Positions 11,404-12,816 of a stretch of 64,000 bases of DNA are shown here, piece by piece. Position numbers and translations under genes: made by a program. Within the stretch, counting starts at the first letter, position 1, and every line of letters starts with the position of its first letter. The stretch is from an uncultured Holophagaceae bacterium. GTDB lineage: Bacteria; Acidobacteriota; Holophagae; Holophagales; Holophagaceae. Under the pieces are notes generated by a model. That model saw only the letters and a list, made by a program, of their open reading frames with translations, ran no database searches and was not told the DNA's origin. The stretch is taken from the NCBI GenBank assembly GCA_903937385.1, contig CAIZZF010000008.1, forward strand, positions 372,001 to 436,000, read 5' to 3'.

Positions 11404-12816
11404 CTACTTCTTGGCGGCCTTCTTGGGGGCGGCCTTCTTGGGGGCGGCCTTCTTCACGGCGGGCTTCTTGGCAGCGGCCTTCTTCACGACGGCCTTCTTC
11501 ACGACAGCCTTCTTCACGGCGGCCTTCTTGGGGGCGGCCTTCTTCACGACGGCCTTCTTCACGGCCGGCTTCTTGGCGGCGGCCTTCTTCGGCGCGGCCT
11601 TCTTCACGGCGGCCTTCTTGGGGGCAGCCTTCTTCACGACGGCCTTCTTCGCGGCCGGCTTCTTGGCGGCGGCCTTCTTCGGCGCGGCCTTCTTCACGGC
11701 CTTCTTCACGGCCGGCTTCTTGGCGGCGGCCTTCTTGGGGGCAGCCTTCTTGGGGGCGGCCTTCTTGGCGGCGGGCTTCTTGGGGGCAGCCTTCTTCGCT
11801 GGCTTCGGAGCTTCAGCGGGAGGAGGGAGGAGGGGGGTTTCGGCCATGGGTGGCTCCTTTACGCCCTTTTGGGCGGGGTTGGAAGGGGTCGTGCGGGAAG
11901 ACGGCTTGCCCTTGGCATCTTTCGCGCCAGGTTGGACCGGATCTTTCCGCGGGGTGGATATGCGTTCCTTGGCCGCCGGAACGGCCGTGGGGGCTTGCGC
12001 CGCGTCTGCGGCAGAGCCGGTCTTGCCCTTGGGCTTCGCGGCTTTTTTCGGAGGCTCCACGCCGGCCAGGATCTGGGCCAGGCGCTTGCCGGGATAGTAG
12101 TCATCGAGGAGGGCGTCGCCGATCAACAGACCGTGAAGGCCGAGGGCCTCCGCCTGCTTGATCTGCTCCAGACGCTGGATACCACCCTCGATCATTTTCA
12201 GGCAGCTCTTGGGCACTTTCTTGACGAGCGCCACGGCCTGATCCCAGGAGGCTTCCCAGGTGTCGAGGTTGCGGCCCACGGCGCAGATGATGTCGGCCCC
12301 GGCCTCGAGGGCGCGCTGCAGCTCAGCCTCGGAGGTGGCCTCCACCACGACGTCTAGCCCCTTGCTGGTGGCAAACTTCAGGAGGGTCTGGAGACGGTCC
12401 TGGGAGAGCAGCGCCGGCATCAGGTAGATGGCATCGGCGCCGAGGATCTTGCTCTCTTCGACCTGGTACTCCTCGAAGATGAACTCGCGGCGGATCAGAG
12501 GCAGCTTCACCTGGGCTCGCACTTCGGAGAGGTGTTTGTCGTCGCCGAAATAGAGGAACTTGTCCGTGGCAACCGACAGGGCCCGGGCACCGTTCTCGGC
12601 CAGACTTTTCGCATGCGTCGAAGCTTTGTAGGCTTCCCGGACCTGCCCGCGACCCGGATCTCCCCCGGCGACTTCACCCAAGATGGTGATTCCAGGCTGG
12701 CTGAGCTCTTCTTTCAGAGAGTGGTGGCCCTTGTAACCGTCCTTTACCGCCACGGGGCCCCTCTGCTTCTTGATTTCCACATCAAGGGCCTTAAAGATGG
12801 CGACTTTCTTTAGCAT
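11404..12816 (-). CDS. TrpC-like TIM-barrel protein fused to histone-H1-like Lys/Ala tail
   Basis: Residues 1-252 match indole-3-glycerol-phosphate synthase in fold and order ([54 protein letters not shown]). Several catalytic positions are changed: E48-V-A50 replaces the family E-x-K, the SPSKG loop is GDPGRG (52-57), the general-acid lysine is Arg110, the catalytic Asn is Val180, and Ser after Glu210 is Gly211. Glu48, Glu159 and Glu210 remain. A disordered linker (about 253-323) leads to a 145-residue tail of A-A-P-K-K and A-V-K-K repeats like bacterial histone H1 homologues. No other trp gene is near. It probably does not make indoleglycerol phosphate; DNA or RNA binding by the tail is inferred. 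An internal start could release the tail alone. Confidence 0.8.
11407..11808 (-). repeat. Lys/Ala/Pro coding repeat (H1-like tail)
   Basis: This is a low-complexity tract of about 400 bp built from short in-frame units that encode [16 protein letters not shown] and K-K-A-V-V. On the plus strand it reads as repeated GGCCTTCTT blocks. Such repeats are typical of H1-like nucleoid proteins of bacteria (compare AlgP and Hc1 types). They expand and contract easily, so length polymorphism between strains is expected. Confidence 0.9.
11845..11860 (-). promoter_or_regulatory. Strong internal ribosome-binding site and ATG for the H1-like tail
   Basis: AAAGGAG (11860-11854) is followed by six bases and ATG (11847-11845), in frame with the fusion gene. 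Initiation here would make a 147-residue protein beginning [14 protein letters not shown], which is nearly pure H1-like tail. Spacing and match are as good as at any gene start in the window, whereas the upstream linker is poorly structured. This could be a true nested start or the remains of an independent gene. Confidence 0.5.

Follow-up and report, generated by a model that had tools for sequence, protein, structure and literature searches.

A single reverse-strand gene of the window (the whole 64,000-nucleotide stretch of DNA that was analysed, from an uncultured Holophagaceae bacterium) was found to join an indole-3-glycerol-phosphate synthase (IGPS, TrpC)-like barrel, in which both catalytic lysines are replaced, to a tail resembling histone H1, and to carry within its frame a conserved internal Shine-Dalgarno sequence and start codon. 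The reading which we prefer, at a probability of roughly one half, is that the gene encodes a nucleoid-associated (polyanion-binding) protein of Holophagaceae from two in-frame starts, with the non-catalytic barrel acting as an interaction head. The positions of the various features are collected in Table 1.

Table 1. Features of the gene, in positions of the window.
Feature	Position	Strand	Basis
Whole gene, long form of 470 aa: IGPS-like barrel, linker and H1/HC2-like tail	11404..12816	-	
IGPS-like (beta/alpha)8 barrel (residues 1-252) with replacements of both catalytic lysines	12061..12816	-	PF00218, residue table, structural model and PDB matches
Variable linker, residues 253-338, with a near-invariant K-G-x-K-E-x-x-M	11803..12060	-	58 distinct linkers aligned
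Likely small RNA hairpin GCCC-AAAA-GGGC, just 5' of the internal Shine-Dalgarno sequence	11863..11874	-	some covariation across genera
Internal Shine-Dalgarno sequence AAGGAG	11854..11859	-	
Predicted short form of 147 aa, the H1/HC2-like protein on its own, from the internal ATG (11845-11847)	11404..11847	-	
Lysine/alanine/proline repeat tail, 26.7 copies of a 15-nt unit	11402..11799	-	
GGAG, Shine-Dalgarno-like, 8 nt 5' of the long-form ATG	12825..12828	-	

The open reading frame of the gene is intact. Residues 28-239 match the Pfam IGPS family PF00218 with 165.6 bits (gathering score 27), and residues 339-468 match PF07382 (HC2, a histone-H1-like nucleoprotein family) with 47.2 bits (cut-off 40), a score which the predicted short form improves to 51.8 bits. 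The original prediction of a TrpC-like barrel joined to an H1-like tail is confirmed by these matches. The cut-offs of the NCBIfam models hist_H1_lk_Burk and histone_lik_HC2 were not reached. In its own genome, this frame is the sole match of both the HC2 profile and the tail sequence. AlphaFold2 modelling of residues 1-252 on a 17-row alignment gave a best mean pLDDT of 80.6 and a pTM of 0.80, with residues 1-30 poorly modelled (pLDDT below 50) and the four other models at 55-73; the best structural matches of the barrel model were IGPS crystal structures and designed enzymes built on that fold. A PHROGs search of the protein matched families of unknown function, Rfam gave no match over 11300-12900, and a promoter scan found nothing. 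The GGAG before the long-form start is weak or missing in some relatives, for example at locus L064. A pseudogene or decaying gene was ruled out, as the barrel residues are kept while the codons drift.

The same fusion was found to be conserved in related genomes, a search which had been proposed with the original prediction. Using the barrel profile (E <= 1e-40), orthologs were recovered in 62 of the 77 Holophagaceae genomes and in none of the 16 other genomes of class Holophagae, and all matches better than 1.6e-45 in a search of 396 phylum genomes fall in Holophagaceae. A search of one genome per species across 84,980 species, which recovers close relatives only, returned 35 loci, all of them titled Holophagaceae, Geothrix or Acidobacteria/Acidobacteriota. 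The possibility of an assembly artefact, also raised earlier, was ruled out: the tail follows the barrel in one frame in 61 distinct coding sequences (of at least 900 nt, some running off a contig end; shorter or N-terminally incomplete matches and exact copies were left out), and the genomes lacking a barrel match fit contigs breaking in the repeat. Among these 15 genomes, in eight the sequence breaks off 121-387 nt from the start of eno, the neighbouring gene, where comparison loci have about 1500 nt of sequence upstream of eno. That stretch holds an HC2 match in six of the eight (G027, G032, G046, G058, G061 and G062) and a lysine-rich frame of 54-95 aa in four of the eight. In the rest, eno is cut in one (G023), no eno is found at the threshold in five, and in G015 the only hit is a different enolase, about 60% identical. 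In none of the 15 was the region found to be intact and lacking the gene.

For the residue analysis, 58 distinct orthologous barrels were compared with 31 other IGPS-family proteins of class Holophagae (the genome's own TrpC, 23 more from Holophagaceae and seven from outside the family). We take the numbering (Lys53, Lys110, Asn180 and Ser211) and the catalytic roles to be those of S. solfataricus IGPS. In the orthologs, the Lys53 position is occupied by Ala or Ser, the Lys110 position by Arg, His or Gln, the Asn180 position by Val or Leu and the Ser211 position by Gly, Ala or Cys, each in 58/58, whereas the expected Lys, Lys, Asn and Ser are each present in 31/31 of the comparison TrpCs. The five substitutions listed in the original prediction (Ala50, GDPGRG, Arg110, Val180 and Gly211) are therefore correct, and the four losses extend to the whole clade. 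A point absent from that prediction is that the catalytic acids and Arg182 are kept. Glu51, Glu210, Arg182 and Gly233 are retained in all 58 orthologs, Glu159 in 56 (Gln in the other two) and Gly212 in 55; Glu51, Glu159, Glu210 and Arg182 are likewise retained in all 31 compared TrpCs. The catalytic lysines, Asn, Ser, acids and Arg182 are all present in 12/12 phylum-level relatives, taken from 193 matching genomes outside Holophagaceae. In addition, Gly51, Gly52, Arg109, Gly181 and Asp234 are invariant in the 58 orthologs and mostly unlike TrpC. The NCBIfam TrpC equivalog cut-off is reached neither by the protein nor by the genome's own, catalytically complete TrpC, and hence has no discriminating power here. 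At one locus (L080, G060:C11:26102-26817), the barrel frame is split into two overlapping pieces in the draft, by a sequencing error or a real frameshift.

A second trpC, the search for which had been suggested earlier, is present in the same genome at C13:110135-110782 (contig C13), inside a trp cluster and with all catalytic residues. A profile search places trpA at C13:112761-113489, and trpD-like, trpF-like and trpB-like frames, read by eye, adjoin this trpC. The original prediction was also right that no trp genes accompany the fused gene, its neighbours being eno and upp. In the reduced genomes G001-G003 (0.9-1.2 Mb, 84-97% complete), trpA was not found and this gene is the sole IGPS-family match; similarly, neither trpA nor another IGPS-family match was found in the drafts G063, G067, G072, G073 and G075. 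trpA was found in 64/77 Holophagaceae genomes and in 14/14 control genomes. Membership of the IGPS family is clear by sequence and by fold, which would suit a working TrpC with an odd tail, but the catalytic residues are replaced throughout the clade, a separate trpC exists in the genome and the gene is kept where trpA was not found, and we give this explanation next to no chance. Hence the barrel is probably not a tryptophan enzyme.

Some further observations were made on the pathway genes. G001-G003, where trpA, canonical trpC and PF02503 were not found, may be lineages that depend on a host or have been streamlined. Two very different canonical TrpC lineages occur in Holophagaceae (L001:1345-2178 against L113, L114 and L116 of G050, G051 and G064), and because the three pairs compared are only 30-33% identical, replacement of trpC within the family is suggested by these sequences. 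The TrpF-like frame beside trpC (L001:2327-2947) is too divergent for the Pfam PRAI profile in its own genome, and no PRAI match was obtained in G011 or G036 either. As the search misses three of the five own-genus genomes given, the window's genome included, PRAI is unusable as a pathway control.

In the phylogenetic tree, the ortholog clade occupies one side of a branch (support 100/100, 22 rows) and has a stem of 1.7 changes per column; the tree does not settle the sister group of the clade and flags long-branch joins. A recent duplicate of the family's own TrpC is unsupported, as the clade does not join the Holophagaceae TrpCs. In nine of nine genomes compared, the barrel is closer to the window's barrel than their TrpC is to the TrpC of the window's genome (for example, identities of 0.93 vs 0.76 and 0.73 vs 0.30); a tenth genome was left out, its row having collapsed as a duplicate.

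The comparative conservation analysis of the two faces of the barrel, with approximate strand limits taken from the AlphaFold2 model, showed that in true TrpC conservation is higher around the strand ends of the catalytic face than on the opposite side (one-sided p = 0.0005), whereas in the ortholog clade it is no higher there (one-sided p = 0.74). Residues 1-40 are among the more conserved ones of the clade, with a mean percentile of 0.37 against 0.71 in TrpC (low values meaning conserved). As conservation is not centred on the catalytic face and the first 40 residues are conserved, this shift, on the modelled structure, speaks more for a role in interaction or oligomerisation than for catalysis or sensing.

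The kept acids and arginine may leave room for a changed enzyme or for a ligand site. As a changed enzyme, the protein would use Glu51, Glu159, Glu210 and Arg182 together with the new invariant residues (Gly51, Gly52, Arg109 and Asp234) to catalyse some other reaction, while the tail tethers it to nucleic acid. The invariance or near-invariance of the acids and Arg182 agrees with this, as do the five residues which are invariant in the clade and mostly differ from TrpC, but both catalytic lysines are lost, the catalytic face is not favoured as it is in true TrpC, and the neighbours eno and upp indicate no related pathway. We consider this explanation rather unlikely. Alternatively, the barrel might bind a phosphate-bearing metabolite and thereby alter the hold of the tail on DNA, and Gly233, Gly212 and Arg182, which presumably line the phosphate site, are kept as counted above. 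The ligand face, however, is not where conservation is concentrated, and the tail is predicted to be made without the barrel too, and this sensor is somewhat less likely still. The metabolite-sensing role put forward in the original prediction is hence not borne out as it was stated, the catalytic face lacking the concentrated conservation seen in true TrpC.

The 218 residues after the barrel consist of 31% Lys, 30% Ala and 15% Pro and carry a net charge of +62, and the barrel has a net charge of -1. The tails of ten relatives outside genus g3 (the window's included) have net charges of +29 to +80. In the two genomes of genus g3 (G050 and G051) the barrel is kept and the tails are less basic (net +34 and +13). 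This speaks against the nucleoid reading: since these tails are less basic and G051 is without the internal site, a complete H1-like tail is not strictly required for the role of the barrel. The G051 tail (locus L072) has a repeat of DPTPVPDS/AKTPAKK type. Over the family, the HC2 profile scores above its cut-off in 31/77 genomes and at E <= 0.001 in 54/77; it has no match in G001-G003, in which the predicted short form is only 29-33 aa, and this too counts against the nucleoid reading.

The tail would be expected to bind DNA in the cell. According to passages of PMC9239181, a fragment of the AlgP tail and KPAA peptides bind DNA, and the PhaF tail is thought to do so. Polycations such as this tail also bind RNA and polyphosphate, and the protein could accordingly be imagined as a tether of polyphosphate granules in the manner of AlgP from Pseudomonas aeruginosa, whose KPAA tail is described in passages of the same paper as needed for granule spacing. 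Polyphosphate storage was shown by FISH-Raman in Holophagaceae cells in sludge, as stated in part of PMC8100337, and polyphosphate kinase, searched with the PF02503 profile alone, is found in 65/77 family genomes. Yet PF02503 was not found in the gene-bearing genomes G001-G003, G039, G054, G072, G073 and G075, several of which are incomplete drafts and the last of which carries the gene in part, and pure-culture Geothrix fermentans, whose own copy of the gene was not seen, stored no polyphosphate (passage of PMC8100337). A general role in polyphosphate is unlikely because PF02503 was not found in these carriers and G. fermentans showed no storage in pure culture, and we regard the tether as very improbable among the explanations of the gene.

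Within the variable linker, K-G-x-K-E-x-x-M stands out in the 58 distinct sequences, and at the DNA level it consists of AAGGAG, six bases and ATG. The arrangement AAGGAG-N6-ATG/GTG is in frame in 60 of the 61 distinct coding sequences, 59 with ATG and one with GTG (L071 of G050); it is lacking only in L072 of G051. Two loci outside this set (L080 and L098) also carry it. This conserved site had been overlooked in the original prediction. Among 18 representatives with less than 92% barrel identity, the Lys and Glu of the internal motif are encoded by AAG and GAG in 18/18, including two genes whose barrel GC3 is only 0.35 and 0.40. In the barrel, on the other hand, a single codon is kept in 0/82 columns of invariant residues (0/35 of those with two-fold codons; Met and Trp not counted), and nowhere in the 759-column alignment are more than 3 nt in a row invariant. 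The internal start is thus constrained at the level of single bases. Since the AAG and GAG codons are invariant while the barrel codons drift, selection appears to act on the nucleotide sequence itself at this site, which fits an internal ribosome-binding site. None of the 18 genes has, in any frame of its first 760 nt, an AGGAG/GGAGG-type site with an ATG 4-9 nt behind it.

Relative to the barrel, the internal start falls at 11 different residue positions (305-331, from an in-frame search only), always in the frame of the barrel and with no stop separating the two; therefore reading through the whole frame is maintained as well. Because of the conserved in-frame Shine-Dalgarno sequence and start, a two-product gene is more probable than a plain fusion, and the gene probably makes the long form together with the 147-aa stand-alone H1-like protein. 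Duplex energies with the anti-Shine-Dalgarno sequence, a cruder measure, do not single out the internal start, which takes rank 1 in 20 of 60 genes, rank 2 in 26 and rank 3-5 in 14 among about 22 in-frame start codons per gene.

Three bases 5' of the internal Shine-Dalgarno sequence lies a hairpin of the form GCCC-NNNN-GGGC. In 15 of the 18 representatives, 98.3% of the cells are paired, and two of the four pairs are changed on both sides, in three cells. The covariation score of 0.219, which rests on two divergent sequences, was reached by 0/500 shuffles and compares with 0.000-0.074 in slid versions; the count of doubly changed pairs was equalled by one slid version and by 16/500 shuffles. 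In the window, the folding energy of the hairpin is unremarkable (z -1.29). The hairpin is likely to be real.

Turning to the neighbourhood, eno is the next gene on the same strand in 45/45 genes which have a stop and at least 300 nt beyond it, at a gap of 31-344 nt, and a divergent upp precedes the gene in 54/60. In the window the run goes on with a DivIC/FtsB-like gene, dapF, parA, parB and accD (Pfam). The gene might form an operon with eno, but terminator-like hairpins, read by eye, lie between the two in some genomes; a terminator pattern scan of this interval in the window found none. A strong GC-rich inverted repeat, AGAGAGGCGCGC..GCGCGCCTCTCT, is present there at 11345-11370 and has no T run. 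G066 has a second enolase (G066:C1:836903-838156), 56% identical to that of the window and away from this locus. The distance from the gene to dnaA is about 35-115 kb in nine genomes having both on one contig (G000, G002, G011, G018, G036, G051, G065, G066 and G070), three of these values assuming a circular contig, and is near 100 kb in G034. In the other six genomes searched for dnaA, the gene and dnaA are on different contigs. The parAB run has the same near-origin position, and the location does not prove a role in the nucleoid.

In the nucleoid-associated reading, the first start would give the long form, in which an H1-like polycation is attached to an old, non-catalytic paralog of TrpC, and the second start, with its conserved Shine-Dalgarno sequence behind the small linker hairpin, would give the H1-like protein alone. 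The tail may cover chromosomal DNA and neutralise it. The barrel, in which constraint extends over the entire surface and the first 40 residues and does not lie mainly at the catalytic face, would be an interaction or oligomerisation head which bridges DNA or recruits a partner, and the ratio of long to short form might set the strength of DNA bridging. A wider reading, which we put forward tentatively and hold to be speculative, is that a former tryptophan enzyme has become a core chromosome protein throughout the family, with bridging and free H1-like forms, and that the hairpin and Shine-Dalgarno sequence act as an RNA switch that the protein itself might read and that sets their ratio and thereby the compaction of the chromosome.

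If this is true, Holophagaceae possess family-wide an H1-like protein headed by a metabolic pseudoenzyme, the gene for which is kept even in reduced genomes without detected trpA or canonical trpC. One could then trace how a nucleoid protein arose from an identifiable enzyme, and two chromatin proteins of one gene could be separated by a six-base mutation. Further, automatic annotation is likely to label the protein TrpC and would lead pathway reconstruction astray in genomes with no other IGPS-family gene.

The original prediction held that the fusion is not a described family, and no description of a protein with an IGPS barrel and an H1-like tail was found in the open-access literature, subscription papers being mostly outside the scope of the search. 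The IGPS fold, the H1-like tail and the internal start are each known, and their combination is undescribed as far as searched. In comparison to TrpC (PF00218), the barrel is homologous over nearly its whole length and keeps Glu51, Glu159 (in 56/58), Glu210 and Arg182, whereas it has Lys53, Lys110, Asn180 and Ser211 replaced, forms a separate clade, bears an H1-like tail and lies outside the trp cluster. The tail and the predicted short form are lysine/alanine/proline rich like Hc2/HctB (PF07382) and above the HC2 cut-off, though not every Holophagaceae relative passes it, and Hc2 also varies in repeat number (passage of PMC2848022). Here, on the other hand, the H1-like unit is nested in frame within a larger gene, the first half of which encodes a TIM barrel. 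In AlgP and PhaF of Pseudomonas, too, a long disordered tail of KPAA type comes after an N-terminal domain (passages of PMC9239181); the head of AlgP is a predicted alpha-helical domain and that of PhaF a PHA-granule protein, whereas here it is an enzyme-derived barrel, and an internal start, which those passages do not mention, is predicted here.

Genes with two in-frame products are represented by AerR (passage of PMC6199135) and SpaO (passage of PMC13059759). In the present gene the short product, predicted from sequence comparison, would be H1-like. A tryptophan-pathway paralog which has lost key catalytic residues and taken on a non-catalytic role is described for plant TSB-like (passage of PMC12727527). 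That protein is a paralog of the tryptophan synthase beta subunit and activates a partner enzyme, and the passage mentions no DNA-binding tail, whereas the Holophagaceae protein is a TrpC paralog whose barrel is followed by an H1-like tail.
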